Below, piece after piece: positions 8,191 through 26,960 of a DNA stretch of 64,000 nucleotides. The stretch spans positions 1,279,543-1,343,542 of the forward strand of contig NZ_LMPP01000001.1 in NCBI RefSeq assembly GCF_001423885.1, read 5' to 3'. The translations under genes and the position numbers were made by a program. Within the stretch, counting starts at the first letter, position 1, and each line of letters opens with the position of its first letter. This stretch comes from Rathayibacter sp. Leaf185. Its GTDB lineage: Bacteria; Actinomycetota; Actinomycetes; Actinomycetales; Microbacteriaceae. Below the pieces are notes generated by a model, which saw nothing but the letters and a program-made list of their open reading frames with translations, searched no databases and was not told the DNA's origin.

Positions 8191-9570
8191 TCAGACCACC
8201 AGACGGGGCTGATTGCGCACTGTGTCGGACAGGCGCAGCAGCACGGCCACGATCATCCAGTTGGCGACGAGGGACGAGCCGCCCGCGGCGAGGAACGGGG
8301 TGGTCAGGCCGGTGAGCGGGATGACGCGGGTGACGCCTCCGATGACGATGAAGCACTGCAGGGCGATGACGAACGAGAGCCCGACGCCCAGGAGGCGGCC
8401 GAAGTCGTCCTGCCCCGCGAACCCGATGCGGAAGCCGCGCGACACGAGCAGGAGGTAGAGGCCGAAGATCGCGAAGAGGCCGGCGAGGCCGAGCTCCTCG
8501 CCGAGGCTCGCGATGATGTAGTCCGACTGGGGGACCGGCGTGATGTCGGGCATGCCCTGACCGAGTCCGGTGCCCAGCAGACCGCCGTGCGCGAGGCCGA
8601 ACAGGCCCTGCACGAGCTGATAGCTGCCTCCGGGATCGGCGCCGTAGCGGTCGGGGGAGAAGGCGTCGAGCCAGTTGGCGAAGCGGTTGCCGACGTAGTC
8701 GAGCGTCTGGCTCGCGAGGATCGCGCCACCGAGGAACAGGCCGACGCCGATCAGGACCCAGCTGGTGCGCCCGGTGGCGACGTAGATCATCACCAGGAAC
8801 AGGCCGAAGTAGAGCAGCGCCGTGCCGAGGTCGCGCTGGAACACGATGACGGCCATCGAGACGGCCCAGATCACGAGGATCGGTCCGAGGTCGCGCAGTC
8901 GCGGGAAGCGCATCCTGAGGAACGTCTTGCCGACCATCGAGAGCGAGTCGCGGTTGCGCACGAGATAGCCCGCGAAGAACACCGCGAGCGCGATCTTCGC
9001 GATCTCGCCGGGCTGGAAGCTGAAGAAGTCGCCGATGCCGATCCAGACGCGGGCGCCGCTGACCTCCTTGCCGATGAAGGGCAGGAGCGGCAGCAGGAGC
9101 AGCACGATCGCCACGAAGCCCGCGACGTACGTGTAGCGGAACAGGATCCGGTGATTGCGGATGACGAGCAGCACGGTGACCGCGGCGACGATCGCCAGGG
9201 CGCTCCAGATGATCTGGCGCACCGCGGTCGACTCCCAGCCGGTCGCTCCGTCGGCGATGTCGATGCGGTAGATCTCGGCGACGCCGAGGCCGTTGAGCAC
9301 CGTGGCGATCGGGAGGAGGAAGGGATCCGCCTCCGGAGCAGCGAACCGCAGCACCACGTGCACGATCAGCACCAGCGCCGACAGGCCGGCGCCGAGCGAG
9401 ACGAGCGTGGTGTCGATCGCGCCGAGGGCGCCGAGCTGCACCAAGAGGATCGCGGACGCGTCGATCAGGCAGGCGCCGATCAGGAGCAGCAGCTCGAGGT
9501 TGCGCAGGCGCTGCCGGAGGAAGCGGGGGCGCTCGCGCTTCGGGGCGGCGGTCGTCACGGCGGCGGTCAC
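8191..9570 (-). CDS. rodA: SEDS-family glycosyltransferase RodA/FtsW
   Basis: A polytopic membrane protein (459 aa, about 12 TM segments) that polymerises lipid II into glycan strands with its partner PbpA. SEDS signatures visible include the FQPGEIAKIA-type motif in the middle and the C-terminal GGSSLVANW motif. The GTG start at 9570 overlaps the pstP stop as GTGA, indicating translational coupling. The position between pstP and pbpA identifies it as the RodA-type rather than the dcw-cluster FtsW. Confidence 0.92.
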   Translation of the reverse strand: MTAAVTTAAPKRERPRFLRQRLRNLELLLLIGACLIDASAILLVQLGALGAIDTTLVSLGAGLSALVLIVHVVLRFAAPEADPFLLPIATVLNGLGVAEIYRIDIADGATGWESTAVRQIIWSALAIVAAVTVLLVIRNHRILFRYTYVAGFVAIVLLLLPLLPFIGKEVSGARVWIGIGDFFSFQPGEIAKIALAVFFAGYLVRNRDSLSMVGKTFLRMRFPRLRDLGPILVIWAVSMAVIVFQRDLGTALLYFGLFLVMIYVATGRTSWVLIGVGLFLGGAILASQTLDYVGNRFANWLDAFSPDRYGADPGGSYQLVQGLFGLAHGGLLGTGLGQGMPDITPVPQSDYIIASLGEELGLAGLFAIFGLYLLLVSRGFRIGFAGQDDFGRLLGVGLSFVIALQCFIVIGGVTRVIPLTGLTTPFLAAGGSSLVANWMIVAVLLRLSDTVRNQPRLVV

Positions 9571-12607: not shown

Positions 12608-12694
12608 GCGCGAGTGGCGGAATAGGCAGACGCGCACGGTTCAGGTCCGTGTGCCCGAAAGGGCGTGGGGGTTCAACTCCCCCCTCGCGCACCA
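12608..12694 (+). tRNA. tRNA-Leu, anticodon CAG
   Basis: The acceptor stem GCGCGAG pairs with CTCGCGC at 12684-12690, followed by discriminator A and an encoded CCA. The anticodon stem CACGG/CCGTG encloses loop TTCAGGT, giving anticodon CAG (reads CUG). A long variable arm (GCCCGAAAGGGC) and T-loop GTTCAACTC confirm a class II tRNA. The total is 87 nt. Confidence 0.96.
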
Positions 12695-12719
12695 GGGTTC
12701 ATCAGAACCAGCAGTACGA

Positions 12720-12753
12720 GAAGCCCCCGACCGGATGTCCGGTCGGGGGCTTC
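12720..12753 (+). terminator. Rho-independent terminator of tRNA-Leu
   Basis: A perfect 16-bp inverted repeat, GAAGCCCCCGACCGGA and its complement, is separated by TG. Its end carries TTC, but there is no long T-run, as is common in high-GC actinobacteria. It begins 26 nt after the tRNA. Confidence 0.88.
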
Positions 12754-12849
12754 GTCGTCCGGCGGCGCCCTCGGCGCGATGCGAGGCCGGCCATCGGAGC
12801 TCTGACCGCGACGTCGCTCACCCGTCGCCTTCCTCCGCCCCCGCCGAGG

Positions 12850-14064
12850 TCAGCCGCCGAGGAGCAGGACGGCGGTGGCCCACGCCGAGAAGACGGCGGG
12901 GGGCTGATCGCCCAGGTCGCCCGACGTGAGAGATCCGACCTCGGTGATCAGCTGCAGGAGCAGGCACGTCGTGACCAGCTGCCGGCAGCGATCACGCCCC
13001 AGCCGACCCGATGTCAGCAGGAGGGCCTCCTCGTCGCGGCTCGCGCGCGGCAGCCAGAGGACCACGGCGTCGGTCAGCCACGGATCGCCGAGAGGGGCGC
13101 CCGCTCCTTCGAGGCCGTCGGAGGTCAGCGCGTCCCAGTCCACGCCGTCGAGTGCGACCAGGCGCGCCTCGATCCGCGGGCCGCGCAGCGTCGCGTCCCG
13201 GGCCTCACGGCGGGCCGCCTCGCGTCCGCGGCGCCGCTCCGAGGCCCGGGTCAGCATGCGCTCGAGGCGCTCGTCCGTCGCGTCGACGCTCGTCCGCCGA
13301 TGGCGGCGGATCTCGAGCAGCATCTGCGGCAGCGTGATGACTCGTTCCGGCGGAACGCGGGTGACCTCGCCTCCCGCCCCGAACCGCTCCACCAGGTCGG
13401 CGGCGAACGACGGCAGAACCACCCACACCTCCCGTGGCCGCCCGGCCAGTTCGGCGTCGATCAACCGCAGCCCCCTGCGGTCGCCGCACGCGACGGCGAA
13501 GGACGGCACCGACGGGGAACGGCTGCGGAAACCGGCGACCATCGCCAGCTCGCCCTGATCAGCACCGCCCGGCACGTTCTGATGGAACACCTTCGTGGTG
13601 CCCGACCACAGCAGCAGCACTCTCTCCGGCTTCGGGGGGACGATCGACAGGGACAACTCCTCCCTCGACGCGCGCGCGAAGGTCGTCCGCCCGTCCGCCT
13701 CCTGCGAAGCGAGCCCCGCGTAGAGCGCCCTGACCGCCTGGTCCTCGGGCTTGCCGTAGCTGCGCACCGCTCCGACGGGCAGCTCGGTCGTCAGGGCCGT
13801 CCACTCGATGAGATCGGCGAGGAGGCGAGCCAGCCGGGCGCTCGCACCGCGCACGTGATCGGCCTCGCCGAGACCGTAGAACTGGGACTGCACCGACCTG
13901 ATGTCGGCCCTGATCCTGGCGAGCCGCTTCGAGCGCTTCTCCCACTCCTCCACCGCCTCCGGTCCGGCGCCGGCCTCCAGCTCCGGCTCATCGGCCGGAG
14001 GAGTCGCGCGGAAGCCGCGGAAGATGTTCTCGGTATCGAGGAGCAGCTCGGAGAGGCCCGTCAT
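12850..14064 (-). CDS. Uncharacterised soluble protein, last gene of the CHAT-island operon
   Basis: 404 aa with no family I recognise and no signal peptide or clear TM helix. Residues about 35-70 are charged and helical (EWEKRSKRLARIRADIRSVQ), the middle (about 150-250) looks alpha/beta with hydrophobic strands such as REVWVVLPSF, and residues 275-310 are very Arg/Glu rich. The C-terminal about 60 residues are leucine-rich and could contact a membrane. It starts by ATGA overlap with the preceding gene, so it is translated together with the three genes before it. Codon use is like that of the neighbours. Confidence 0.75.
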   Translation of the reverse strand: MTGLSELLLDTENIFRGFRATPPADEPELEAGAGPEAVEEWEKRSKRLARIRADIRSVQSQFYGLGEADHVRGASARLARLLADLIEWTALTTELPVGAVRSYGKPEDQAVRALYAGLASQEADGRTTFARASREELSLSIVPPKPERVLLLWSGTTKVFHQNVPGGADQGELAMVAGFRSRSPSVPSFAVACGDRRGLRLIDAELAGRPREVWVVLPSFAADLVERFGAGGEVTRVPPERVITLPQMLLEIRRHRRTSVDATDERLERMLTRASERRRGREAARREARDATLRGPRIEARLVALDGVDWDALTSDGLEGAGAPLGDPWLTDAVVLWLPRASRDEEALLLTSGRLGRDRCRQLVTTCLLLQLITEVGSLTSGDLGDQPPAVFSAWATAVLLLGG

Positions 14065-15344
14065 CGCTCCCCGCCGAGGTCGAGGCCCGCACCCCGGAGC
14101 TCGGCGAGGAAGGGGTCGGCCCAGGCCCCCGCGGGCACAGTGCCCCGCGAGACGGTCCGACGCGCCTCATCGACGCGAGCGTCGACGACGGCGGCGATCG
14201 CGGCCCTGTCGGCACTGCGCTCCGCCTCGCTGCGGGGCTGGAATCCGTCGGCACCCACCGCATCGCTGTAGACCGTGACCAGCACCTCGGACACCGGGAC
14301 CGTCGCGTCGAGATCGGTCTCGCCGTCGTACCCGCCCTCGACTGCAGCCAGCGCGACACCGGCCACCAGGCCGTCACCGTAGTCCACGCGCGCGAAAAGA
14401 CCACCGAGCGGGAGGCGCCGCTCCACTGCGCCCTCGTCGGCGTCGACCATGACCCGGAACTGGCGCCGGCCGTCGAACTCGAAGATCTGCCAGCGCACAG
14501 CGTCGTCCTCCGCCGAGACGACCCGAGGCGGGACCGCGAGCGGATCCACCGACGCTGAGCCGCTGAGGTCCGCACCACTCGCAGACCCGAACCGGTCGGC
14601 GGGCGAGCCGGACGAGGTGCGCATCGTGCGCTCGTCCACCTGGATCGTGAGCAGCTCGAGGTCGAGATCCTCGAGTTCGCGCGCCACCAGCGCGTCCTCG
14701 CGACCGGCGCGCACCTCGGCCTCGGCCAGCTCGGAGTAGCCGTCGGAGTCGGGATCGCTGCTCTCGAGGAGCGAGTGCGCCGCCCGCTGCAGGATCGAAT
14801 CCGCATACCCCAGCAGCGGCCGGCCACCCAGGAGCGACTGGTGCCGACGACGCAGTGCAGCCAGCGGCACGACGTGCGGCTCGAGCAGGAGACGGGCGAG
14901 CGCGTCGTCATCACCCAGCGCCACCTCGCAGTCGAAGGCCGTGTCTCCCGCCTCGATGTCGAGCAGCCAGGCGGGCAGCTTCGGGATGGTGTCGGTCCGG
15001 GTCGGCCACCAGCGGCGGAGCCACAGGGCGAGGCCGAGGCGGAGCAGGGTCGCACGCAGAGGGTGAGCCGCCTCCTCCGCGGATCGAGTGATCGGCTCGG
15101 AGTCGACGCTCGCACGACGCGCGGCGTCGGCGACCTCGGCGCCGAGCACGAGCGGGAGCCACCACATCGCCGCGTCGAGGTCGTGGATCACGGCACGCAG
15201 GGCGGGATCGCGCTCGTCGACCGCGAAGGCGACATGACCGCCGCTCAGGGCGACGAGCGTGTGACGGCGCTCGAGCGAGGCGGGAAAGCCGATCGGCGCG
15301 ACGACCACGATGTCGCCGTCACGGCTGATGAGGAGTTCTGTCAT
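14061..15344 (-). CDS. Uncharacterised 427-residue protein of the CHAT island
   Basis: Soluble protein of 427 aa without recognised motifs. The N-terminal about 230 residues are mixed alpha/beta and helical, with a notable WWLPLVLGAEV stretch. A Ser/Gly-rich linker near 245-270 separates a C-terminal part rich in strands (RWQIFEFDGRRQFRVMVDAD) that resembles a small beta-sandwich. The start overlaps the upstream stop as ATGA and its own stop overlaps the next start the same way, so a fixed stoichiometry is likely. Function is unknown; it could be an adaptor or sensor of the CHAT protein (inference). Confidence 0.75.
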   Translation of the reverse strand: MTELLISRDGDIVVVAPIGFPASLERRHTLVALSGGHVAFAVDERDPALRAVIHDLDAAMWWLPLVLGAEVADAARRASVDSEPITRSAEEAAHPLRATLLRLGLALWLRRWWPTRTDTIPKLPAWLLDIEAGDTAFDCEVALGDDDALARLLLEPHVVPLAALRRRHQSLLGGRPLLGYADSILQRAAHSLLESSDPDSDGYSELAEAEVRAGREDALVARELEDLDLELLTIQVDERTMRTSSGSPADRFGSASGADLSGSASVDPLAVPPRVVSAEDDAVRWQIFEFDGRRQFRVMVDADEGAVERRLPLGGLFARVDYGDGLVAGVALAAVEGGYDGETDLDATVPVSEVLVTVYSDAVGADGFQPRSEAERSADRAAIAAVVDARVDEARRTVSRGTVPAGAWADPFLAELRGAGLDLGGER

Positions 15345-17257
15345 GATCCGTTCCCGATTCCTGGGGGTGTGCCGCGGCCGATCGCCGTGCGTATCTGCAG
15401 TGCTGCCAGTGCGAAGGGCACGGTCGGGCACCCCGACCGCTCGGCCTCGCGAGACCAGATCGCCCACTGCTCCGATGCGCCGGATCGCGCCGCCGAGTCG
15501 ACTGACGGCGACCCCACCACCTGGATGAAGCGGTCGACCTCGTCGTCGCCGACCGTCGCCCGCGCGACCCCGAGCGTCTCGGCCGTCGCCGAGATGATCG
15601 GCAGGTCGGGACGGGGATCCTCGAGGAGGTGGGCCGGGTCGTTGGACGCCTCCGACGCGCCCGGCGGGTGGCCGGGTCTGATCCTGCTGCCCGGGTCCGA
15701 GCCGTCCGATGGGCCGTCGACGATCCCCACCAGGTTGACTGCCTGTGCGAGGACGTCGTCGGTCCGCTTCTTCGTCGAGACGAAGGCGGTGTGGATGCGG
15801 GACCACGCGACATCGCCGCTCGGCGGGGTCGAGGACGTCAGACCGAGCCGCAGGACGTGGGTCCACAGCCGGCCCGCGTAGTACGGCCCGGCATCGCGGA
15901 GGTAGGCGCGCGCGATCGGGTTGCGCGCCTGATCGCCGTAGGTCCCGAACGCCCGGGACACCACTGCTCGCCACGACACCACCATCTGCCGGTAGCCGCC
16001 GGCCAGCCGATCGGCGGGGTCGACCGCCTCCGAGGGCTTCGCGAGCGTCCCGCCACCGTCGTCCCAGGTGGCGCCCGACATCGCCGACACGCCCGCGGCG
16101 AGAATCACACGAGCCCACGCCTCGGCGACGCCGTAGATCCCCGTCGACGCCTCGATCACCCTGCGGAACGCTCCGTCGGCCGTGAGGTCGGACGGGAAGG
16201 CGGCGCCGTTGTCCTTGACGACGCGGAAGAGACGGGCGTGGATGCTCTCGTCGAGCGGGTGCGCGGGCGTTCCGCGCAGGTCGTCGCCCGCCTTGCCGGT
16301 CCCGCCGGCGACTCCGGGAAGCGCTCCGGTGAGCGGCGGCCGGACCGGTGCGGATCCGCGGGTCAGCGACAGAGCCGCCGCCGGTGACCACTGCCGGAGA
16401 TCGGCCGCCGCGACGAGAGCCTGCCAGTGCTGCTCGCCCGCGTCGGACACCACGGTGACCACCCGGTCGCCCCCGTCCTCGAGGGCGAGGGTGCACTGGT
16501 TCACGAACCGCTCCATGGAGGATCGCCATTCCCTGTCCGAGCGAGCGCGCCCTTCCCTCTCTGCGGATGTCGCGTCGCGGACCCGGCCGTCCTCCGCCAC
16601 GCGGCCGGCGGGCAGGCCGTCGGTGGACCCGCCGGCCCATGCCTCCTCGAGGAGCGTCGCCAGCTCCCTGCCGTGATGCTTCAGCGCCTGGGCGAGATCG
16701 GTGCTGCGGATGCCGTGCCGCGCCAGCGCGCGGCCCCTGATCGCCAGAGCCTCCGACGCCCGTCGTTCCAGAGCCGCGGGCTCCAGCGTCCAGGGCTCGG
16801 GGAGCTCGCCGGCCAGAGCGACGGCGGTCGGGGCGGTGACGGCGGCCGCATCGGAGCGGATCACCCGCTCCGCCGTGTTGCTCTCGATCAGGGCCGCCCA
16901 CCAGATCGCCGAGGCCCGGAGGGAGTCGCGCGCCTCGATCAGGCGCCCGCGCACCTGATCGGCAGTGGCGTCGGACAGCACGGTGGTCGGCGAGCCGAGG
17001 GCGTTCTTGCTCAGCAGTCCGGCGAGTACCGGCGGCAGCACGTACTCCCTCGCGCTCTTCGTCGGTCCCAGAGCGCGGGTGAACGCGCGCAGCTGCAGCA
17101 CCTCGGGCGCCGAGTCGGGCCAGACCTCGGCAAGGAGAGATGTGAGCAGCACAGCGGTGATCCCGACGATGGAGTGGTCGACTGGTGTCAATCTAGCGGC
17201 ACACCCCGTCGCCCGCGTCGCCCCCGTCGAGACCTGCTGCGCCCCGGTCACGGACAC
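15341..17257 (-). CDS. Uncharacterised 638-residue protein of the CHAT island
   Basis: 638 aa from a GTG that overlaps the lipoprotein gene's 3' end by 10 nt; a TTG about 23 codons further in (LTPVDHSIVG) is an alternative start. No domain is recognised. The predicted character is helical throughout with a hydrophobic N-terminal stretch (ITAVLLTSLLAEV) too short to be a secure TM helix, and a low-complexity stretch about 540-575 (DGPSDGSDPGSRIRPGHPPG). It is the longest gene in the minus-strand operon. Co-translation with the OmpA-like lipoprotein and the next two genes suggests one complex. Confidence 0.75.
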   Translation of the reverse strand: MSVTGAQQVSTGATRATGCAARLTPVDHSIVGITAVLLTSLLAEVWPDSAPEVLQLRAFTRALGPTKSAREYVLPPVLAGLLSKNALGSPTTVLSDATADQVRGRLIEARDSLRASAIWWAALIESNTAERVIRSDAAAVTAPTAVALAGELPEPWTLEPAALERRASEALAIRGRALARHGIRSTDLAQALKHHGRELATLLEEAWAGGSTDGLPAGRVAEDGRVRDATSAEREGRARSDREWRSSMERFVNQCTLALEDGGDRVVTVVSDAGEQHWQALVAAADLRQWSPAAALSLTRGSAPVRPPLTGALPGVAGGTGKAGDDLRGTPAHPLDESIHARLFRVVKDNGAAFPSDLTADGAFRRVIEASTGIYGVAEAWARVILAAGVSAMSGATWDDGGGTLAKPSEAVDPADRLAGGYRQMVVSWRAVVSRAFGTYGDQARNPIARAYLRDAGPYYAGRLWTHVLRLGLTSSTPPSGDVAWSRIHTAFVSTKKRTDDVLAQAVNLVGIVDGPSDGSDPGSRIRPGHPPGASEASNDPAHLLEDPRPDLPIISATAETLGVARATVGDDEVDRFIQVVGSPSVDSAARSGASEQWAIWSREAERSGCPTVPFALAALQIRTAIGRGTPPGIGNGS

Positions 17258-18438
17258 GTGCCGGAGGCGTCACCCCGCGAGACGACGACCGTCCTGTTCT
17301 GCGCCGCGGCCCGCTCGATCAGCCGTCCCTCGGCGTCACGATCGGAGACGCGGCACGGCCACGACGATCCGTAGCCCACGATGCGCACGGCCGACACGTC
17401 GATGCCGAGGGCCGTCGCGAGGGGCTCCGCGGCTGCGCGGCCGCGCTCCTCGGAGAGGGGCACGTTGACCGACTCGTCGCCGACGGAGCTCGTCGACGCC
17501 TCGATCAGCACCTCGCCCTCGCAGCCGGCGAGCGCCTCCGCGATCTCGGCGATGGTCGCCAGAGCCGCTGCCTCGTCGACGAACTCGGCCGTGTCGCTCC
17601 GGTAGCCGATGGCGGCGTCGGGCAGGACACCCCGGCAGCCGCCGGCCTCCACCGTCGGGCGCGCGACGTCGATCGGTGTGACGGCGGGCAGATCGGCGGT
17701 CGGCTGCGCTTGAGCGACCAGCGAGGAGCTGCTCCAGTCGACCTCGGCACCGGATGCCTCGAAGAACGCCTGCCACTGCGACTGGAGCGCGGCGCGGGCC
17801 GAGCTGGTCAACTCGCTCTGCGGGCTCACCACCACTCCGAGCCGCGGAGCCGACACGGCGACTCCCCGGAGATCGGGCACGCCGCCGCTCTCCTCGAGGG
17901 CCGCGATCCTGTCGGCCGGGTCGCGGTAGAGAGCGCCGTCCAGCATCGCGAGGCCGCCCGCCGTCTGCAGCATGCTGTCGAGGATCACCATCGTCCGCGA
18001 TCGAGCGTCGGGGGAGAAGGGAGCGGATCCGAGCGCGATCGCCTCCGTGAGGTCGGCTTCCGCCGACTCCGGGCGGGCCGCGACCACCGCTGCCGCTGCG
18101 GTGTTCTTGATCTGGTCGAGCCGATCGGAGCGGGACCGGCCGTTCCCGGGCAGATCGTCGAGGGTGAGGTCGAAGAGCACGCGGGGCGACCCCTCGACGC
18201 CGACGACGACCAGCCGGTCGCCGACCGCGTCGATCCGGTCGAGCGCCTCGAGGACCGTGGCGGTCGAGACGGCCGGCGAGTTCGCACGGGTGCCCGCGAC
18301 GATCACGACCTCGTCACCGCCCGTGTCCTCGACCGGGCCGCAGCCCGCGAGCACGGACGCTCCCAGGGCTGCGGCGACGAGCAGTGCCAGGCGGGTGCGG
18401 GCGGCGCGGCCGGCGCGGAGGGGGGTGGTGACGATCAT
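17248..18438 (-). CDS. Lipoprotein with OmpA-like C-terminal domain
   Basis: 396 aa. Signal peptide with lipobox VLAGC (lipidated Cys33) places it on the outer face of the membrane. The middle about 200 residues look like an alpha/beta domain (for example RTMVILDSMLQTAGGLAML, reminiscent of vWA folds, not proven). Residues about 290-390 resemble an OmpA/MotB-type peptidoglycan-binding domain: a VLIEAST strand, the SEERGRAAAEPLATALGI helix, the IVGYGSSWP strand, then AQNRTVVV. The ATG at 18438 is 60 nt downstream of a 20-bp element shared with other units of this island. It would tether the system to the cell wall (inference). Confidence 0.8.
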   Translation of the reverse strand: MIVTTPLRAGRAARTRLALLVAAALGASVLAGCGPVEDTGGDEVVIVAGTRANSPAVSTATVLEALDRIDAVGDRLVVVGVEGSPRVLFDLTLDDLPGNGRSRSDRLDQIKNTAAAAVVAARPESAEADLTEAIALGSAPFSPDARSRTMVILDSMLQTAGGLAMLDGALYRDPADRIAALEESGGVPDLRGVAVSAPRLGVVVSPQSELTSSARAALQSQWQAFFEASGAEVDWSSSSLVAQAQPTADLPAVTPIDVARPTVEAGGCRGVLPDAAIGYRSDTAEFVDEAAALATIAEIAEALAGCEGEVLIEASTSSVGDESVNVPLSEERGRAAAEPLATALGIDVSAVRIVGYGSSWPCRVSDRDAEGRLIERAAAQNRTVVVSRGDASGTCP

Positions 18439-18498
18439 GTCCGTGTCCTTCTCTCTTCGGGTGGGGCTGCGGGGCGGTCGGGTGGCCGCCCCCTCAGT

Positions 18499-18518
18499 GC
18501 GAGTACCGGTCCCGATCA
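18499..18518 (-). promoter_or_regulatory. Island upstream element, copy A
   Basis: On the minus strand it reads TGATCGGGACCGGTACTCGC. It ends 60 nt before the lipoprotein ATG. It matches copy B in 18 of 20 positions and copy D in 17 of 20. GGACCGGTAC is nearly palindromic, so it may be a dimeric operator; GGGACC could alternatively be an ECF-type -35 box, but no common -10 was found. Confidence 0.6.
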
Positions 18519-18525
18519 GGGGGCG

Positions 18526-18708
18526 TCACATCCAGCGCTTCGCGTGCTGCGCGCAGACGAGGCCGGTGCCGCAGTCGCAGCGGCGGCCGCGCCAGCCGCC
18601 GAGGCAGGCCGGGCACAGCTGCAGGGGCGACGAGCACCAGGCGCAGGCGCCGTGATCGCGCTCGTCGACGCGGGAGCGCACGAACATCCAGCGCAGCAGG
18701 CGGTTCAT
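18526..18708 (-). CDS. 60-residue cysteine-rich putative zinc-binding protein
   Basis: A basic, Trp-rich N-terminus (NRLLRWMFVRSR) is followed by Cys22-x2-Cys25, Cys32-x2-Cys35, Cys44-x-Cys46 and Cys52-x2-His55. These eight potential ligands could hold two zinc ions in a RING- or double-zinc-ribbon-like knot. The start overlaps the membrane-protein stop as ATGA, so the two are translationally coupled. No known family is recognised. By context it may dock to the membrane protein or to the CHAT protein (inference). Confidence 0.75.
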   Translation of the reverse strand: MNRLLRWMFVRSRVDERDHGACAWCSSPLQLCPACLGGWRGRRCDCGTGLVCAQHAKRWM

Positions 18709-20267
18709 CGGGTGACCACCGCGTCGTCGTCGCCCTGGTCGCGCGCCGTCCCGGTGGCCGCGACGCCGGGGACGACGAGGTACAGCGGCTCGGCGGCGGT
18801 CCCGGAGGCGGGCTTCCGCCGCCAGGACGTCGCCCAGTCCGGCAGCTCGAGCGGGCCGAGGTCGTCCGTCTCCCGCCCGGGGATCCACACGGCCGTGGGT
18901 GCCGGGCGGGTCTCCTCGACCCGCACCTCGACCGCCCCGGTCATCTCCGGAGTCCCGTGCGCGAGTGCGAGCTCCTGCGAGTACTCCGCCTTGATCACGT
19001 CGGCCTGCGCGGCGAGCTTCGTCGGCTCGATCGCCCAGATGCCGTCGGTGATCTCGGCGTCCGAGATCTGGTAGTCGATCTGCCGCTCGACGTCCCCTGC
19101 TCGCTCCTTCACGTCGGCGAGGTCGGCCTCGAGCTGCTCCACCGTCACCCGGGCGTGCAGCTCCCGCTCTCGCGCCGGGTTGTGGCGGAGGCTCATCACC
19201 AGGACGGTCATGCCCATCCCCAGGAGGAAGAACACCCACATCGCCGTCGTCAGCCCCTGGTACTCGACGATGAACGGCAGGCTGCCCTCGGCGAGGCTGC
19301 CGCTGCCGGTGACCGCCTGCAGCTCCTGCTGCGCCCGTTCGTACTCGCTCAGTGCGTGCGCCGCCTCGGCGGCCCCGCGGAGGGTGCCGAGCAGGACGCC
19401 GGCGCTGAGCCAGGTCGCTCCTCCGAGCACCACCGTGAGGACGGAGCGGGCCGCGAGCGCCCGCCCGCGGCGCAGCGGTGCAGCAGCGGGGGGCGTGCCG
19501 TCGGCCGTGGCGGCCGTCGCTGCGCGGGTCGCACGCCGCAGCGCAGCGAGGTCGGCGACCGCGCGGCCCACCTGATGGGGAAGGACGGTCAACGCGACGA
19601 CGACGGCTCCGGCGAACAGCACAGGGATCCACGGATTCTCGGGGCGCAGGATCTGGTCGAGCGAATCGCTCGCCGCGGCGAACTCGATCGCGGCCACCCC
19701 CAGCACCACGGCGGCGTCGATGATCGCCAGCCGCAGCAGCACCCGGCGGTAGTTGCGGGCCGTCGCGTCGATCGGAGATCCCGTCCGGATCGCGCCGTCG
19801 TCGTCCTCGCGGATTCCCTCGAGCACCTCGTCCCACTTGTCGGCGTCGTCCCGAGCGGTGCCGAGCCGCTCCGAGAGGACGCTCTCGCGCTCGCGCAGGC
19901 GGTCGAGCCCGCCCGTCGCGTCACCGACGGGCGCGGTGAGGCGCCCGCCGATCGCGTCGAGGATGTGCACGAGGCCCTGTCTCCGCTCGTCGGTGCGGCG
20001 CTTCACCGACTCGACGGAGCGCAGCCGCGTCTCGGCCTCGACAGTGGAGTCGTTCAGCAGCGGGCCCTGGCCGGCGAGGACCTGCTCGGGCGCCTGCGAC
20101 GATCCGTGCACCTCGTTGACCGCGCTCTGCTGGGCGCGGCGGACGAGAGTGCCGGTGTCGACCGTCGGCTCGAAGTCGGGCACGCGCGCCGTGTGGATCG
20201 GACGCGTCTCGGGCACGAACCGCTCGGGTTCGTCTCCGGGGGCGGGGCGGCGGGGGAAGAGCTTCAT
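18705..20267 (-). CDS. Four-TM coiled-coil membrane protein of the CHAT island
   Basis: 520 aa. The cytoplasmic N-terminal part contains a charged coiled-coil (about 75-160). Four TM helices are apparent at about 177-198, 212-230, 276-295 and 340-360. A second coiled-coil follows (about 365-405), then a Pro-rich C-terminal tail. No catalytic motif or family is recognised. The start at 20267 lies 62 nt downstream of copy B of the island element, with GAGAGGA near the ATG. In other CHAT systems the protease is often encoded beside a membrane-active substrate, so this protein is the first candidate target (inference). Confidence 0.78.
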   Translation of the reverse strand: MKLFPRRPAPGDEPERFVPETRPIHTARVPDFEPTVDTGTLVRRAQQSAVNEVHGSSQAPEQVLAGQGPLLNDSTVEAETRLRSVESVKRRTDERRQGLVHILDAIGGRLTAPVGDATGGLDRLRERESVLSERLGTARDDADKWDEVLEGIREDDDGAIRTGSPIDATARNYRRVLLRLAIIDAAVVLGVAAIEFAAASDSLDQILRPENPWIPVLFAGAVVVALTVLPHQVGRAVADLAALRRATRAATAATADGTPPAAAPLRRGRALAARSVLTVVLGGATWLSAGVLLGTLRGAAEAAHALSEYERAQQELQAVTGSGSLAEGSLPFIVEYQGLTTAMWVFFLLGMGMTVLVMSLRHNPARERELHARVTVEQLEADLADVKERAGDVERQIDYQISDAEITDGIWAIEPTKLAAQADVIKAEYSQELALAHGTPEMTGAVEVRVEETRPAPTAVWIPGRETDDLGPLELPDWATSWRRKPASGTAAEPLYLVVPGVAATGTARDQGDDDAVVTR

Positions 20268-20329
20268 GATCCTGTCGTTCCTCTCGTGTGGTGGGCGGGG
20301 CCGGCTCCTGGGTACGCCGACCCCGTGTG

Positions 20330-20349
20330 GCGCGTACTGGTCCCGATCA
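20330..20349 (-). promoter_or_regulatory. Island upstream element, copy B
   Basis: On the minus strand it reads TGATCGGGACCAGTACGCGC, 18 of 20 identical to copy A. It overlaps the stop codon of the preceding gene and ends 62 nt before the membrane-protein ATG. Confidence 0.6.
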
Positions 20350-21066
20350 CCCGGCGTCGCGGTCGGACAGCGCCGTGCCGGGGCTGCCGGTCCCGCGCTC
20401 GGCCACCTGGCCGACGTCCTGCGCTCCGGAGCGGGTGGTGGGGAGCTCCGGCGCCGGCCGGTAGCGCGGGATGCTCGGGGCGGCCGACGGGCGCCGGCCG
20501 AGCAGACCCGAGCGCGACTTGGTGTACAGGGCGGCGTACGCCTCGTACGCGTCGGCGCAGAGGCGCCGGGCCGTCGCGACCTCGGCGAGCAATCCGGTCC
20601 GGAGCGCCGACAGGCGATCACGCTCGGCCGACGCCGCGTGCGAGCGGCCGAGTGCCGATGCCCGCTCCGCGTTCGCCCGGCGGGAGGCTCTGACCTGCGC
20701 CGCCCACTCCTGACGCCGGCGGCCCTCGAGCTGAGCCAGCTCGTGCTCGGACGGCTCGTCCTGCGACGCGCCGGGGTGGGCGTGCGCCTCCGAGGCCAGA
20801 GCGGCGAGCCGCATGTCGAGGGCGGTGAGGGCGGCCTCCGACTTCAGCGACAGGTCGTCGTCGAAGCGGCGCACGGCGGCGTGCAGCATGAGCAGGTAGT
20901 GGGTGGGCTCGGTGTCGTCGACCTGCCGCTGACGGATGCGGTCGATCCGACCCGTCCAGCGCACACGGCTGCGTCGCCACAGCGTCAGCTCTGTCGACGG
21001 CATCGAGGCGGTGAAGCGGTACTCGTCGGCGCCGACGGTGATCGGGACGGTGCGGATGCTGAACAC
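20347..21066 (-). CDS. Helical uncharacterised protein, first minus-strand gene of the CHAT island
   Basis: 239 aa from a GTG with GGAGG 6 nt upstream. The N-terminal 40 residues look like beta strands (FSIRTVPITVGADEYRF). About 50-190 is Arg/Glu/Ala rich and strongly helical or coiled-coil. The C-terminal 50 residues are Pro/Ser rich and probably disordered. There is no signal peptide. It is divergent from the CHAT gene across 151 bp, so the two promoters are back to back and may share one regulator. Confidence 0.75.
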   Translation of the reverse strand: MFSIRTVPITVGADEYRFTASMPSTELTLWRRSRVRWTGRIDRIRQRQVDDTEPTHYLLMLHAAVRRFDDDLSLKSEAALTALDMRLAALASEAHAHPGASQDEPSEHELAQLEGRRRQEWAAQVRASRRANAERASALGRSHAASAERDRLSALRTGLLAEVATARRLCADAYEAYAALYTKSRSGLLGRRPSAAPSIPRYRPAPELPTTRSGAQDVGQVAERGTGSPGTALSDRDAG

Positions 21067-21105
21067 GGGGATCCTCCAGAGGGTGGGGTGACGGGTTGTC
21101 CTGCC

Positions 21106-21125
21106 CCGCCTACCGATCCCGACCC
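21106..21125 (-). promoter_or_regulatory. Island upstream element, copy C (degenerate)
   Basis: The minus strand carries GGTCGGGATCGGTAGGCGG. Within the 15-bp core, 12 positions match copy A. It ends 39 nt before the GTG of the helical protein. On the plus strand a partial version, GGATCGGGGTACC, begins at 21132 and faces the CHAT gene. Confidence 0.45.
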
Positions 21126-21217
21126 GGCGGGTGGATCGGGGTACCACCGCTCTTGCGGCGACCGGATGCGACAGCCACGATCAGAGGACCCGATGTCCAA
21201 GAAGAAGAGGGGCACCT

Positions 21218-24202
21218 TTGCCAGAGCACATCGAACCGGACGCCTGGGTCGCCTACCTCGAGGACACCGTGTCGCTGTCGGTCGACGACGCCCGCCGGGC
21301 CCCGCGCCTCGCCACCGTGTGCATCGCGGCGTCGGTCATCGTGCGGGCGGCGTCGACGGACGACGTCGGCCTGCCGCCGGCGCGACCCGCCTCGACCGTC
21401 GTCCGGGCGGCGGCCGCCGAACTGCTGCGAACGGCCCGCGGACCGCTCGACACGGTTCTCGGTCTCGTGGGCCGGCACTGGAAGATCGAGCGGGAGGACC
21501 CGGACGACGCAGAGCGCTGCGCCGACTTCGAGCGTGCCGCCGAGATCGCCCGGGAGACGGGCGATCGTCTCACTGCGACGTGGGTGCTTCTCGTCGCGAC
21601 GACCGAGTACGTCCGGACACAGCGCACCGCGACGGCCGACCGGTACGCGATCCGCGCGGTCGCGATGTTCGAGGACTCCGTCCCGGGCCTCGGCCCGACA
21701 GCTGCGTCGGATCATGTCTGGCCGGGCCTGACGACACCCGACTCGATCCGGACCGTGATCGAGCTGTTCACTCGCGATGGGGAGGTGCGGGCGAACCGGC
21801 GCACGACGGGTCGGGTGGGGGACTGGGATTCCGCGATCGATTCCATGAAGGCGGTCGCGGTGCGCCTCGTGAAGGAGCGTCCGACGCTGCTCGCCCTGGC
21901 GCTCGGTCAGCGCGCTCTCTTCGAGCGGACCACTGGGGACCAGGCCGACCTCTCAGAGCTGCGCGAGCTCGGCGAGCGGAACCCGCTCCTCCTGGGGAAG
22001 TACTTCCAGCACGAGGCCGCCAACGCCGACGCTCGCGGCGACTACGACGCAGCGCTGGGGTGGCACCGCCGCCGGATCGACTCCCGCCTCGCACCTCTCC
22101 GCCCGGATCTGGTGGGTGCTTCTGCACCGGTGCTGACCGCAGCGTTCCGCGATCTCAGCGAGTCGGATCGTCGACGCTTGAACGCGGTCGCGAACCCTGC
22201 GTTCGAGATGTCGTCGAGCCTCATCCAGTCGGGCCGTACGGTCCTCGTCGGTGCGGACGCGAAGGCGGCCGTCGAATGGCTCGACCTGGCCGACGTCCTC
22301 TGGGACGGGTGGGGGAAGAACGGGCTGATGGCCGTGCGCTTCAACCGGCACCGCCTGTCGCCCGGTCTCTCGAGCGCCGCGGTCGCCGATCTGCTCGACA
22401 TCTCGCGAACCGCCGGTCGTCCCGGTCTGCGGGTGAGCGCTGTCGAATACGCCGCCCTGCACGGGGAGTCGCGGCTCGTGCAGGTAGTCGCGCGACTCAC
22501 GGAGATGCTCGACGAGCAGTTCACCTCGCTCGAGCGCGCCCGATTGCTCACCGCGCGGTCCTGGCTCACCCGACCGGACGAGCGGATCGCGAGTCCGCAG
22601 TCGACCCTCGACGCCGCGGAGGCGCTCGGCCTGATGCCGGCCCGTCCTGCGTCCAGGCTGCGCACCATCGCGAGGGCCGCCTGGGTGCTGGCGCTCTGCG
22701 CGCGCGACGACGACGATCCCGAGGCCGAGCGCGTCGCGCTCGAGGAGGCCGTGATCGCGGCCGGCCGGCTGGTGCTCAACGCCACGACGTTCTCGCAGCG
22801 CAGCATCCTCGCCGGGGACTGGTCGGTGGTCATCCGCCGCGCGCTCGACTTCGCGCGCGAGAACGACGACGCCGCCCTCGCCGATCTCGCCGCCGAGGTC
22901 GCCCGCCGCGACAGCGTCGGAGTGCTGCTGGCCAATGCCTCCTCCGAGGCCGGCGCTCCTGCGGAGGTGGTCGATGCGGCGCTCGCCGTGCAGACGGCCG
23001 GCCGGGCGGGAGACGTCGACGACCAGCAGGACGCATCGGCCGAGGCCGAGCCCGTCGACCCCGAGGCCGACGAGCTCCTGCGCAGCGGGATCGACGCGCG
23101 GGTCGTGGTCAAGGCCAGGGCCGCCTACGCGTCGGCCGAGCGGCTGCTCGGACCCATCGGCAGCCTCATGGACCCCCGCACCCTCTACGAGGCGGGCGCC
23201 ACCGATCTCCTCGGCGAGCTGCCGAAGACGCAGCCCACCTTCATCCTGCAGCTGCTGCCCTCCACCCTCGCGATGGTCGGGCACGACCAGACCGCGCGCC
23301 TCTACCGGCGGCTCACGTGGATCGAGGACGGCGAGCCCGCCGAGTACCTCGATCACGTGCGGCTCTGGCCGGGGCTCCTCACCGACCCCGCGCTCACGGG
23401 CGAGGACGACTGGCTCGACGGGACGCCGCTGCTCCCCGACCCTCTGGTCGAGGCGCTCGAGACGGCCACCGCCGCCGCGCCGATCCGGCTGCTGGTCGTC
23501 GCGAGCGGCCTGTTCCACATCTGCTTCGATGCGCTCGAGATCGGCGGTGGTCTGCGGCTCATCGACCGGGCGCTGACCACCGTGCACACCTCGCTCGCCG
23601 GGGTCCGCTACATGCTCGCCAACCCGCGCTCCGCCGGGGAGGGCAGTGTCGCCATCCTCGACGATCGCGCCTTCAAGGACACCGCGCACGAGAAGGAGTC
23701 GCTCGAGCGCTGGTTCCCGGTCACCAGAGGGGTCGGATCCCGCTCCGAGCTCGACAACCCCTATCTCGACATCGAGAAATCCTCGGTCTTCGTCATGGGA
23801 GTGCACGGTGGTGACGACGCGAACGGCTGGCACCAGGTGAAGACCCTGCCCAGCGGAGAGTCGATGACAGCCGCCGAGGCGCTGAACTACCGGTACCCGG
23901 CGCTGTGCGTGCTCGCGTCGTGCAACTCGCAGATGCGGCTCGGCGGCGGCGTCGACCTCTCCGGGTTCCCGACCGCGCTGTTCGCGCGCGGCGCCCGGAC
24001 GGTGATCGGCAGCGTGGGCGGCATCTACTCCCTGCCCACCGCTCTCATCATGAGCCGCTTCTACGCGCACCTGCACGAGAGCGGCAACCCCGTCGTCGCC
24101 CTGCGCACGGCGCGGCTCCGATGGCTCGGCGAGAATCCGACGCGGCGTGACGAGGTGGCCGCGTGGGGCCGTCTCGTGATCTACGGAGGCGCGCAGTACT
24201 GA
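21218..24202 (+). CDS. CHAT-domain (caspase-like) protein with helical repeat N-terminus
   Basis: 994 aa. Residues about 1-690 are alpha-helical and repeat-like (TPR-type character, for example about 100-135 and 455-500). Residues about 700-994 form a CHAT domain of the separase/caspase clan: VVASGLFHICFDAL marks its early core, His863 lies in MGVHGGDD and Cys902 in LASCNSQ, giving an intact His-Cys dyad. The end (FYAHLHESGNPVVALRTARL) is typical. The TTG at 21218 is chosen because GAAGAAGAGG precedes it; a GTG at 21131 would extend into the divergent promoter. It would be a cytosolic protease activated by a partner. Possible substrates are the divergent operon's proteins (inference). CHAT proteins with TPRs act in gasdermin and type III-E CRISPR systems, which are absent here. 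Confidence 0.88.
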   Translation: MPEHIEPDAWVAYLEDTVSLSVDDARRAPRLATVCIAASVIVRAASTDDVGLPPARPASTVVRAAAAELLRTARGPLDTVLGLVGRHWKIEREDPDDAERCADFERAAEIARETGDRLTATWVLLVATTEYVRTQRTATADRYAIRAVAMFEDSVPGLGPTAASDHVWPGLTTPDSIRTVIELFTRDGEVRANRRTTGRVGDWDSAIDSMKAVAVRLVKERPTLLALALGQRALFERTTGDQADLSELRELGERNPLLLGKYFQHEAANADARGDYDAALGWHRRRIDSRLAPLRPDLVGASAPVLTAAFRDLSESDRRRLNAVANPAFEMSSSLIQSGRTVLVGADAKAAVEWLDLADVLWDGWGKNGLMAVRFNRHRLSPGLSSAAVADLLDISRTAGRPGLRVSAVEYAALHGESRLVQVVARLTEMLDEQFTSLERARLLTARSWLTRPDERIASPQSTLDAAEALGLMPARPASRLRTIARAAWVLALCARDDDDPEAERVALEEAVIAAGRLVLNATTFSQRSILAGDWSVVIRRALDFARENDDAALADLAAEVARRDSVGVLLANASSEAGAPAEVVDAALAVQTAGRAGDVDDQQDASAEAEPVDPEADELLRSGIDARVVVKARAAYASAERLLGPIGSLMDPRTLYEAGATDLLGELPKTQPTFILQLLPSTLAMVGHDQTARLYRRLTWIEDGEPAEYLDHVRLWPGLLTDPALTGEDDWLDGTPLLPDPLVEALETATAAAPIRLLVVASGLFHICFDALEIGGGLRLIDRALTTVHTSLAGVRYMLANPRSAGEGSVAILDDRAFKDTAHEKESLERWFPVTRGVGSRSELDNPYLDIEKSSVFVMGVHGGDDANGWHQVKTLPSGESMTAAEALNYRYPALCVLASCNSQMRLGGGVDLSGFPTALFARGARTVIGSVGGIYSLPTALIMSRFYAHLHESGNPVVALRTARLRWLGENPTRRDEVAAWGRLVIYGGAQY

Positions 24203-24296
24203 GTCGCTCGGCGCCGGTGAGGGGAGGGGATCCACCGGGAGCCGAGGCTCGGGTCGCCGCCCTCGGGAGGTCCGGCTGATCGAATCCGCGGTCGGC

Positions 24297-24316
24297 GGAG
24301 CGGGACCGGTACTCGC
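24297..24316 (+). promoter_or_regulatory. Island upstream element, copy D
   Basis: The plus strand reads GGAGCGGGACCGGTACTCGC; its last 16 bp are identical to copy A. It ends 82 nt before the ATG at 24399. Like copies A-C, it points toward the gene it precedes, although on the opposite strand. Confidence 0.6.
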
Positions 24317-24398
24317 GGTGTGGACATCGACGCCGCCCTCGCAGCCCGCGGAGGCGGTCGCCGGTGCTGACCACGCCAGGCGCGACGGAGGAGCTTCG

Positions 24399-24857
24399 AT
24401 GAGAGTCAGTGCAGTCGACCGGATGATCGCAGAGACGGTCGAGCGGTGGCAGGTGTGGCTGGCGTTCCCCGAGGTCGGTCTCGCCGAGGGAGGAACGGGA
24501 CTGTGCCCGCACTGCCCCCGCTACGCGGAGTTCCTGGAGCTCGACGAGTACGTGCACCAGGCGCTGCACCCGCTGATCGTCGATTCCGTGGGAGTCGTGC
24601 GGAGCCTGACGATCGAGGCGGCGAGGAGCGACGCGGGAGTCGGCAGGGACTCGATCGCCTTCGTGGGGTTCGAGTCGGGCGTGGTCGTCGATGCCGAGGT
24701 CGATCAGCAGGCGAGGGGTCTCATCGAGTCCTTCTTCTTCGACGGGCACACCCGGATGCTCGTGAACCTGTGGAGCAGGCGGCTCACGATCGAGACCGCT
24801 CTGGCGCTGGAGGTGGAGCCCAAGGTCCTCGCCCTCCTCCCCGACGGCTGGCGCTGA
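24399..24857 (+). CDS. Uncharacterised 152-residue protein downstream of the CHAT gene
   Basis: A soluble protein from an ATG with GGAGGAG 6 nt upstream. It contains a CPHC motif (residues 36-39) that could bind a metal with one more ligand pair, followed by a helical FLELDEYVHQALHPL stretch. The C-terminal half is strand-rich (VVRSLTIEAARS, DSIAFVGFESGVVVDAEV). No family is recognised. Copy D of the island element lies upstream, tying it to the same regulation. Confidence 0.75.
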   Translation: MRVSAVDRMIAETVERWQVWLAFPEVGLAEGGTGLCPHCPRYAEFLELDEYVHQALHPLIVDSVGVVRSLTIEAARSDAGVGRDSIAFVGFESGVVVDAEVDQQARGLIESFFFDGHTRMLVNLWSRRLTIETALALEVEPKVLALLPDGWR

Positions 24858-24936
24858 GCGGGGACGACGCCCGGCGGTCACGGGACGAGGGGCACGCGTT
24901 CACCGGATGGACGCCGGTGGCGAGCATCATCGGCGC

Positions 24937-25242
24937 ATGATCGCTCTGCGTGCCGATGTGTCTGCGCTCGACGCGCGTGTCTCCTCCGAGCTGCTGCGGC
25001 GCCTCCGCGGGCACAGGAATGCGCAGGTCGGCGCACGCCAGTGGATCGCGGTCGTGCCCGAGGTGGGCTCGGTGCTGGTCACCGATGGCGCAGCGATCGT
25101 GCTCGACGTGCTGGTGGAGCATCGGGCGCTCGTCCCGATCGTCATCGATGCGCTCGAGACGGAGTTGCGGCGCGACGGGTTCCGCGAGCGGATCGCGCTG
25201 CGCTGGTCGACCCCGGACGCGGTGCCGGTCCCGTTCCGCTGA
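24937..25242 (+). CDS. Small uncharacterised protein at the end of the CHAT island
   Basis: 101 aa from the ATG at 24937; an in-frame ATG at 24907 would add 10 residues, and neither has a good ribosome site. The sequence alternates helices and strands (QWIAVVPEVGSVLVTDG, IVLDVLVEHRALVPIVIDALE), like a small alpha/beta fold. No motif is recognised. It is convergent with the next gene with only a 1-nt gap. Confidence 0.6.
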   Translation: MIALRADVSALDARVSSELLRRLRGHRNAQVGARQWIAVVPEVGSVLVTDGAAIVLDVLVEHRALVPIVIDALETELRRDGFRERIALRWSTPDAVPVPFR

Positions 25243-25243
25243 G

Positions 25244-25676: not shown

Positions 25677-26912
25677 TCAGGCGGAGGCGCCGAGAGCGTC
25701 GACGGACGCGATCGCGTCGGGGGGCGGGTCGGAGTCTCCGGCGGCCGCGGCGGGATCCGCGAGCGCACGCCGCCAGGGTAGCTCCGCAGCACCCACCAGC
25801 TCCAGCCTCGACCGCAGTGCGGCCCGCTCGATCCGCACCCCGCGGGCGAGGTCGCTCAGGGCGCGCGCCGAGACGCGGGCGGCGAGGCGCTCGCGGTCGA
25901 CGGTGAGCAGGGAGCCGAGGAAGCCGCCGAGGACGACGGCCGTGGGGTTGAAGAGGTTGATGTACGTCGAGAGTCCCTCGGACAGCAGGTCGACCTGGCG
26001 GGCGACCTCGGCGAGGACCGCCGGGTCGCGGGAGGTGCCGAGCGCGATGTCGAGCTCGTCCTGGTCGAGGACCCGAGCGCCGAGGACGTCGAGGAGGGAG
26101 CGCATCCGCACCTCGGCCTCGAGGCAGCCGTGGCGACCGCAGCTGCAGCGCCGGCCGCCCGCGGCGACTAGGGTGTGGCCGAGCTCGGCGGCGAACCCCG
26201 AGGAGCCCTGCAGCGGGATCCCGCCGATGATGACGCCTCCGCCGATGCCCCCCGCGCCGCCGGTGACGTAGACGACGTCGGCGACGCCGCGCGCGGCTCC
26301 GAAGAGCGACTCGCCGATCGCGCCGAGGCTCGCGTCGTTGCCGACCGAGACCGGGAGGCCGAGTGCCCGGGACAGGAGTGAGGACAGGTCGACGTTGCGC
26401 CAGCCGAGGTGGGGCGCGAGGTGGACGAAGCCGGAGTCGATCTGGACCAGGCCCGGGACCGCGACGCCGGCGCCGAGGAGGATGCGGCGCGACTCGCGCT
26501 CGGCCCGGAAGCCCTCGACGATGCCCGTGACCACGCGCACGACCGTGTCGGGCGACGCCGGCTTCGGGGTGTCGAAGCGGACGCGGCGCAGCAGGTCGCC
26601 GTTGAGGCCCACGAGACCGACGATGATCGCGTCGGTGTCGAGGTGCACGCCGACCACGGCGAAGGTGCGGCCGGGAACGACGGTGGCGCTCGGGCGGCCG
26701 ATGCGTCCGTCGGGAGCCGTCGTCTCCTCCTCGACCCAGCCGAGCTCGGTCAGCTCGCCGACGAGGTTCGCGACGGCGGAGCGGTTGAGGCCGGTGAGGC
26801 GGCCGAGGTCGGCGCGGCTGGTGGGGCCGCTGCGGTGCACCAGGGTCGCGATCGCGGCGAGGTTGTGGCGGCGGAGCAGGGCGTTGCTCGACGGACCGAC
26901 TGCTCCTGCCAT
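25677..26912 (-). CDS. ROK-family transcriptional repressor
   Basis: 411 aa: an N-terminal winged helix-turn-helix (about 15-70, with TSRADLGRLTGLNRSAVANL) and a C-terminal ROK sugar-kinase-like domain carrying the zinc motif CSCGRHGCLE. It lies directly downstream of the permease gene of a sugar ABC importer, so it probably represses that operon and responds to the imported sugar or its phosphate. The inverted repeat TTGTC-N6-GACAA over the chvE -10 is a plausible operator (inference). The start at 26912 has a weak ribosome site. Confidence 0.88.
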   Translation of the reverse strand: MAGAVGPSSNALLRRHNLAAIATLVHRSGPTSRADLGRLTGLNRSAVANLVGELTELGWVEEETTAPDGRIGRPSATVVPGRTFAVVGVHLDTDAIIVGLVGLNGDLLRRVRFDTPKPASPDTVVRVVTGIVEGFRAERESRRILLGAGVAVPGLVQIDSGFVHLAPHLGWRNVDLSSLLSRALGLPVSVGNDASLGAIGESLFGAARGVADVVYVTGGAGGIGGGVIIGGIPLQGSSGFAAELGHTLVAAGGRRCSCGRHGCLEAEVRMRSLLDVLGARVLDQDELDIALGTSRDPAVLAEVARQVDLLSEGLSTYINLFNPTAVVLGGFLGSLLTVDRERLAARVSARALSDLARGVRIERAALRSRLELVGAAELPWRRALADPAAAAGDSDPPPDAIASVDALGASA

Positions 26913-26960
26913 GCTCGTCCGTCTCTCGTCGGGTCGGCCCGAGGAGGGCCGCGGATGCAC

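Follow-up and report, generated by a model that had tools for sequence, protein, structure and literature searches.

A nine-gene island with a CHAT protease at a tRNA-Leu gene of Rathayibacter sp. Leaf185, possibly an envelope-linked signalling system

A stretch of 64,000 nucleotides from Rathayibacter sp. Leaf185 (contig NZ_LMPP01000001.1, positions 1,279,543 to 1,343,542 of the forward strand), in the following called the window, contains an island of nine genes, g1 to g9, located at positions 12850-24857 and adjoining a tRNA-Leu gene. The island was horizontally acquired by one actinobacterium, and its genes g1 to g7 travel together, being found in a second genome of the same family, G370, beside another CHAT protease. 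Directly supported by the data are the island itself, its acquisition, the recurrence of the gene set, a CHAT domain with candidate His and Cys residues, and a 19-bp element confined to the island. These observations are consistent with a CHAT-protease signalling system that was acquired horizontally, is linked to the envelope, has a regulon of its own and is probably conflict-related, a reading to which a nearly even chance is given. The features involved are the following, with positions referring to the window and protein lengths in amino acids (aa).

12608..12694, plus strand: tRNA-Leu (CAG), detected by ARAGORN; left anchor of the integration site, outside the island
12762..24867: island proper, from just past the inverted repeat downstream of tRNA-Leu to just past g9, defined by empty-site comparison with siblings
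12850..14064, minus strand: g1, 404 aa, orphan; 33% identical to g1 of G370
14061..15344, minus strand: g2, 427 aa, of an actinobacterial family without a name; 37% identical to G370; hhalign 99.5% to the distant family
15341..17182, minus strand: g3, 613 aa, of a second nameless family pairing with g2; 33% identical to G370; hhalign 96.6% to the distant family
17248..18438, minus strand: g4, 396 aa, lipoprotein with a C-terminal OmpA-like domain (Pfam); 44% identical to G370; relatives on three plasmids
18499..18517, minus strand: 19-bp element, reference copy, 60 bp upstream of g4
18526..18708, minus strand: g5, 60 aa, Cys-rich; 40% identical over 50 aa to G370 (tblastn E 6e-6)
18705..20267, minus strand: g6, 520 aa, with four hydrophobic helices (hydropathy), then NPAR..EL and a coiled-coil-like tail; 24% identical to g6 of G370 (BLASTP E 2e-12)
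20330..20348, minus strand: 19-bp element, two mismatches, 62 bp upstream of g6
20347..21066, minus strand: g7, 239 aa, orphan, probably helical; 31% identical to g7 of G370 (BLASTP E 2e-16)
21218..24202, plus strand: g8, 994 aa, CHAT protease (Pfam CHAT at 881-990) with an N-terminal repeat-like region
24298..24316, plus strand: 19-bp element, one mismatch, 82 bp upstream of g9
24399..24857, plus strand: g9, 152 aa, orphan with CPHC, inside the breakpoints; no family in Pfam, NCBIfam, PADLOC or PHROGs
24907..25242, plus strand: g10, 111 aa, resident gene outside the island, kept in the island-less siblings G204 (87% at nucleotide level) and G205 (80%), two of the five opened

The acquisition of the island was established by comparison with other genomes of the genus. 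The tRNA region is matched in all 14 siblings. For 10 of them, a ROK gene 86-98% identical to the one at 25677-26960 of the window is found on the same contig, 0.5-3.9 kb from the tRNA region; this leaves too little room for the island, which is therefore absent from these genomes. For the remaining four, just a ROK paralogue, 45-47% identical, was found. The sites were opened in detail in five of the 10 island-less siblings (L113-L117). Similarity to the window ends at 12758-12761 in all five and resumes at 24868 in G204, at 24876 in G205 and at 25243 in the other three, so that the breakpoints are at about 12762 and 24867. The original prediction had described a block of ten genes: nine of these form the island, and the tenth, g10, is a resident gene, since G204 and G205 retain it. 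Its divergent layout, with g1-g7 on the minus strand and g8-g10 on the plus strand, was confirmed by the ten open frames, nearly all of them with a clear coding-type codon bias, and the ATGA overlaps it mentioned were found at the g1/g2, g2/g3 and g5/g6 junctions.

The tRNA-Leu site is variable, since siblings hold other genes there: G200 and G201 have a small gene next to one for a Schlafen AlbA_2/HATPase_c_4 protein, G204 has a GH16-like gene, and the other opened siblings have little or nothing. The Schlafen AlbA_2/HATPase protein gave partial PADLOC matches to Argonaute/SIR2-type models. The g1 stop lies 156 bp beyond the tRNA gene, close to the roughly 150 bp first estimated. As also noted originally, neither an integrase nor an att repeat is apparent: no integrase domain was detected by Pfam among the ten proteins, and the 15-mers of 12641-12850 recur in the window solely as an 18-bp inverted match near 9416. 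An Rfam search gave no match.

A search with g3 found G370 as the only genome besides the source genome, that is two of 396 genomes of the order. The G370 locus contains, within 19 kb, DUF5663, g6, g5, g4, g7, a HerA/VirD4-like ATPase, an FHA + FtsK ATPase, a kinase-TPR protein, CHAT, g3, g2 and g1, all on one strand except for the kinase-TPR protein, which is opposite. The identities listed above for g1 to g4 were obtained from pairwise alignments. Among the PADLOC models, mad8 was matched by both ATPases, at E 2.6e-16 and E 6.6e-19; those matched by the kinase are PD-T4-6 (E 1.3e-35) and mad6. Domains of all these types are common outside defence. Co-occurrence across Microbacteriaceae, originally put forward as a check, holds for G370, where g1-g7 are found together; the block is otherwise rare, a g2 profile matching in six of 398 family genomes and the extended gene set being seen in two of these six only, the source genome and G370. 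Neither a dispersal of the genes nor an assignment to well-described unrelated families, either of which would have spoken against the prediction, was found: g1-g7 recur in G370, and g2, g3 and CHAT recur in distant actinobacteria. ROK-family genes lie within 10 kb of both extended systems (25677-26960 in the window; L006, C1:1333500 in G370) and are 42% identical, which may be due to chance. In the source genome there are two FtsK matches, both away from the island. An FtsK-type gene of that genome (L048, contig C5, at about 83907), 35% identical to part of the G370 FHA-FtsK protein and with FHA- and PP2C-like neighbours recognised by eye, is not linked to the island.

The g2-g3-CHAT combination is much more widely distributed. 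Scans with the g2 profile, in which four candidates per genome were scored in class and family, revealed relatives in 27 of 394 class genomes and, within one genus that LpqH and the neighbouring genes (recognised by eye) mark as Mycobacterium-like, in 65 of 98. The alignment behind the 6/398 and 65/98 counts and one PDB search, like the g2 seeds and the g2 tree, included one protein of plasmid pNSL1 (L052) of undemonstrated g2 homology, and no claim is derived from its rows. Sixteen loci were opened, from 11 of 25 distant class genomes, from all four new family genomes (one of the two loci of G1049) and from G1208, picked within the 98-genome genus for its short g2 match. One of them, L080, a contig of 5 kb on which g3 and g2 are present, is too short to judge CHAT. 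Genes g3, g2 and CHAT are found together in 13 of the 15 judgeable loci, a count obtained with profiles built partly from those same loci; as an independent check, the G370 CHAT protein alone detects a CHAT gene beside g2 in nine of nine distant loci (E 4e-29 or better). At the two exceptions, L079 (G1049) and L082 (G1208), the stretch seen contains a g2 relative and neither g3 nor CHAT. G1049 carries two equal-scoring g2 copies, on contigs C3 and C4, and the g2 of G1208 is shortened.

An LpqH-type lipoprotein (Mycobacterium 19 kDa, PF05481) is present in or beside the cassette in eight of the 13 loci and was not seen in the other five; the five cassette lipoproteins tested all passed the LpqH cut-off. 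The LpqH (19 kDa antigen) family may thus be linked to signalling. Loci linking LpqH-family lipoproteins to g2-g3-CHAT are L040, L042, L045, L047, L049, L066, L076, L077 and L078. The cassette is chromosomal in the genomes examined for location, no Pfam family was matched by four g2 and four g3 relatives, and no description of the cassette was found in the collection of open-licence papers searched.

The protease g8 probably starts at a TTG codon at 21218. Its CHAT domain, anticipated in the original prediction together with TPR-like repeats, was detected by Pfam with E 1.5e-11 (44.7 bits against a cut-off of 24; profile positions 175-288 of 289), and reaches 79.2 bits in a Rhodococcus relative; the TPR part is weak (TPR_7, E 0.019, below cut-off). 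Candidate catalytic His (GVHGG) and Cys (LASCNS) residues are present, the motifs VHG and ASCN being common to g8 and the Rhodococcus relative. An alignment of 16 CHAT proteins of the G370 type also shows one His and one Cys conserved without exception; these residues we take to be the catalytic pair. Strong relatives of g8 within the family are limited to its own genome, one of 199. At genus level, two of 15 genomes match, g8's own included; the other, G116, matches weakly (30% over residues 856-987) and has no other island gene nearby. Two scans of genome contigs, with g8 and with g4, found no relative.

In a tree of CHAT proteins, g8 groups with the CHAT protein of Rhodococcus plasmid NZ_CP034155 (L062; support 1.00), far from the cassette proteases, and the G370 protein groups with CHAT proteins of Rhodococcus plasmids (support 0.98). 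As no BLASTP similarity links g8 to the G370 protein (E 0.5) and the tree separates them, the history of g8 differs from that of the protease of the nearest relative island. The similarity of g8 to the Rhodococcus plasmid protein is 31% over 73% of its length. The only plasmid relatives of g8 are found on two Rhodococcus plasmids, each downstream of a Sigma70_r2 gene with one gene between. On these small plasmids, L062 (4301-8749) and L063, genes for a sigma factor, a 214-aa orphan and CHAT are consecutive and may represent a minimal CHAT/sigma unit; the two records contain no CRISPR annotation.

The 19-bp element, GATCGGGACCGGTACTCGC, occurs in three copies in the window, oriented towards g4, g6 and g9, compared to 0.06 expected; none of 100 shuffles reached three. 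Allowing up to two mismatches, these are the only sites in the whole 4.1-Mb genome, all upstream of island genes; allowing up to three, eight sites are found, versus two for the reversed pattern. One site with three mismatches is present in Rhodococcus ruber L064. The existence of three copies would suggest that one dedicated regulator acts on them.

The remaining proteins have few recognisable relatives, and Pfam matches near or above cut-off were obtained for two of the ten only, g4 (OmpA) and g8. Several protein types named in the original prediction were found. Its OmpA-like lipoprotein is g4, which scores 26.6 bits, just below the cut-off of 27.2, and has a lipobox LAGC recognised by eye; its G370 relative reaches 34.7, above cut-off. 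NCBIfam gave OmpA-type matches below cut-off for g4, and PHROGs gave weak matches to two families of unknown function. The four-helix protein with a coiled-coil-like tail is g6, whose likeness to Rhodococcus four-helix proteins is not significant. The tiny zinc-ligand protein is g5, whose cysteines make zinc binding probable. Protein g1 begins LLLDTENIFRGF, with FFDAENVFYGL in its G370 counterpart, and resembles NYN/PIN by eye only; as a proven NYN nuclease it was rejected, having no Pfam match up to E 10 and an hhalign value of 0.2% against two plasmid NYN-annotated proteins. Sequence searches of the PDB with g1, g2, g3, g6, g8 and the G370 CHAT protein gave no convincing match.

Among 72,556 plasmid records, three contain a relative of g4 (E 2e-13 to 3e-11): pPE-7 of Nocardia, and p4 and pNSL1 of Rhodococcus. 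CHAT, TPR and NYN-annotated genes are located near the g4 relative on p4 and pNSL1; on pPE-7 no CHAT was seen within 31 kb. Six tetratricopeptide-repeat-annotated genes surround the OmpA gene of pNSL1 (L052). The conjugative R. ruber plasmid pYYL1.1 carries DUF87 (HerA-type), DUF5663, NYN, CHAT and TPR genes, and its lipoprotein is weakly similar to g4 (BLASTP E 1.8e-4 to the pNSL1 protein, E 0.08 to that of the window). Three Rhodococcus plasmids (L051, L052, L064) share a conserved pair of nameless proteins of about 440-540 aa beside CHAT, in the positions of g2 and g3, which are perhaps functional counterparts of these. A g2 relative on pNSL1 was withdrawn, the first plasmid protein giving just 6.7% (E 0.005) with hhalign against g2. 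Plasmid searches with window g2, G370 g3 and G370 g1 gave no match.

From these elements we infer sensing, cleavage, substrate, output and role. The OmpA lipoprotein g4 and the membrane protein g6 would detect a signal at the envelope or retain it there, and the cytosolic g2 and g3 would regulate the protease or serve as its substrates. Once activated, g8 would cut a regulator; the output would probably be transcription of the island's own units via the private 19-bp element, to which a toxic effector, g1 or g9, could be added. The likeliest role would be in conflict with phage or mobile DNA, or as a severe envelope alarm. The original prediction of an envelope-linked, proteolysis-triggered stress or defence system is retained in part: an envelope-linked, protease-centred unit recurs, as g1-g7 plus CHAT in G370 and as g2, g3 and CHAT, often with a lipoprotein, in distant actinobacteria, and one of its ten genes is excluded.

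Comparison with known systems yielded likenesses and no membership. Passages of PMC10028731 describe a TPR-CHAT protease, Csx29, which cuts a sigma-factor inhibitor, and a sigma motif at three promoters of CASP's own locus. Craspase/CASP and the island share a CHAT protease within a multi-gene locus and a private motif at three promoters of that locus, and a sigma-factor gene lies near the Rhodococcus plasmid relatives of g8. The parallel to the 19-bp element is suggestive, as an analogy, and no membership is claimed: unlike Craspase/CASP, the island has envelope proteins, and no Cas7-11-type family was found in g1-g10 by Pfam, NCBIfam or PADLOC, with just a chance-level Cmr1 match on g10 (E 0.031). 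The extracytoplasmic function (ECF) sigma factor, a Craspase trait, has no equivalent in g1-g10, where Pfam detected no sigma domain; such a domain is present beside the plasmid relatives of g8. The CATRA caspase ternary conflict systems, named in a part of PMC8195603, similarly consist of a protease of caspase type and partners of unknown function. They differ in that g2 and g3 match no Pfam family; CATRA-N (PF20269) gave no match in g1-g10 at E up to 1 and in none of five genomes, the 14 controls likewise giving no match. The closest likeness is to the actinobacterial g3-g2-CHAT cassette, with homologous, adjacent g2 and g3 and an envelope lipoprotein often next door; the island differs by having the OmpA lipoprotein, g5, g6, g7 and g1, and its CHAT protein belongs to a different lineage (tree support 1.000). 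Zorya (ZorA/ZorB) is a wall-anchored anti-phage system, and like it the island joins a membrane protein and an OmpA-type protein. Zorya membership was rejected: ZorB1 matches g6 in its membrane part with 14.9 bits versus 400 (NCBIfam), and ZorA, ZorC, ZorD and ZorE gave no match.

Several observations weigh against a conflict-related signalling system that has a regulon of its own. Allowing up to four mismatches, a search for the element gave no site in the region of G370 and none in five of the six plasmid regions, and Pfam finds no sigma-factor or DNA-binding domain in g1-g10. The plasmid pair are not demonstrably homologues of g2 and g3, the second protein giving 0.1% with hhalign against g3. 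As g8 is not of the lineage that usually partners g2 and g3, a working partnership in the island is assumed. PADLOC detected on the window proteins only ZorB1 on g6 (E 4.7e-5) and the Cmr1 match on resident g10 mentioned above. Finally, one genus has the g2 family in 65 of the 98 genomes scanned, which fits housekeeping better than sporadic defence. This distribution, and the association with LpqH-type lipoproteins in eight of 13 cassettes and with an OmpA lipoprotein in the extended type, would be explained by an envelope-homeostasis module, in which CHAT, TPR, g2, g3 and lipoprotein monitor the wall and the island is an extended version. Such a module is unlikely, if not strongly so: few genomes have the extended form, which has relatives on plasmids and occupies a variable site, and its protease comes from another lineage; rarity, plasmid relatives and foreign protease together argue against housekeeping.

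The relatives of g4 and CHAT on Rhodococcus and Nocardia plasmids, and the DUF87, DUF5663 and NYN-annotated genes near CHAT on conjugative pYYL1.1, could alternatively reflect a mobile-element function, such as transfer, exclusion or addiction, carried by plasmids of actinobacteria before it reached the chromosome. This is improbable, given that the g2-g3-CHAT cassette is chromosomal where examined and that Pfam detects neither a relaxase nor an integrase or ATPase family in g1-g10. The missing ATPase also makes it very improbable that the island is a remnant or part of a secretion machine; that idea derives from the FHA-FtsK ATPase of the G370 block, of a type seen in type VII secretion, from the HerA-like ATPase beside it, and from the EccC-annotated proteins among the plasmid matches of the former, whereas the two FtsK matches of the source genome lie elsewhere. 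The smallest likelihood of all is assigned to a gathering of unrelated genes at a tRNA hotspot: the site does hold other genes in siblings, but the recurrence of g1-g7 in G370, the gene overlaps and the shared private element largely refute it.

CHAT proteases in conflict systems are already known; the gene set of the island is absent from the libraries used. The families of g2 and g3, recognised by none of these libraries, recur beside actinobacterial CHAT proteases. On a wider scale it is tentatively proposed, as a possibility well short of even, that actinobacteria carry a new class of CHAT-protease alarm with g2 and g3 as its basis, which would couple an envelope lipoprotein to intracellular proteolysis without CRISPR. 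Its core would be near-resident in Mycobacterium-like genomes, the extended island and plasmid forms would have swappable proteases and ATPases, and in the present island cleavage would lead to private transcription. The island, whose protease lineage differs from that of its relative and whose candidate output element is confined to it, is a compact test case for what, if true, would be a bacterial caspase-like pathway triggered at the envelope.

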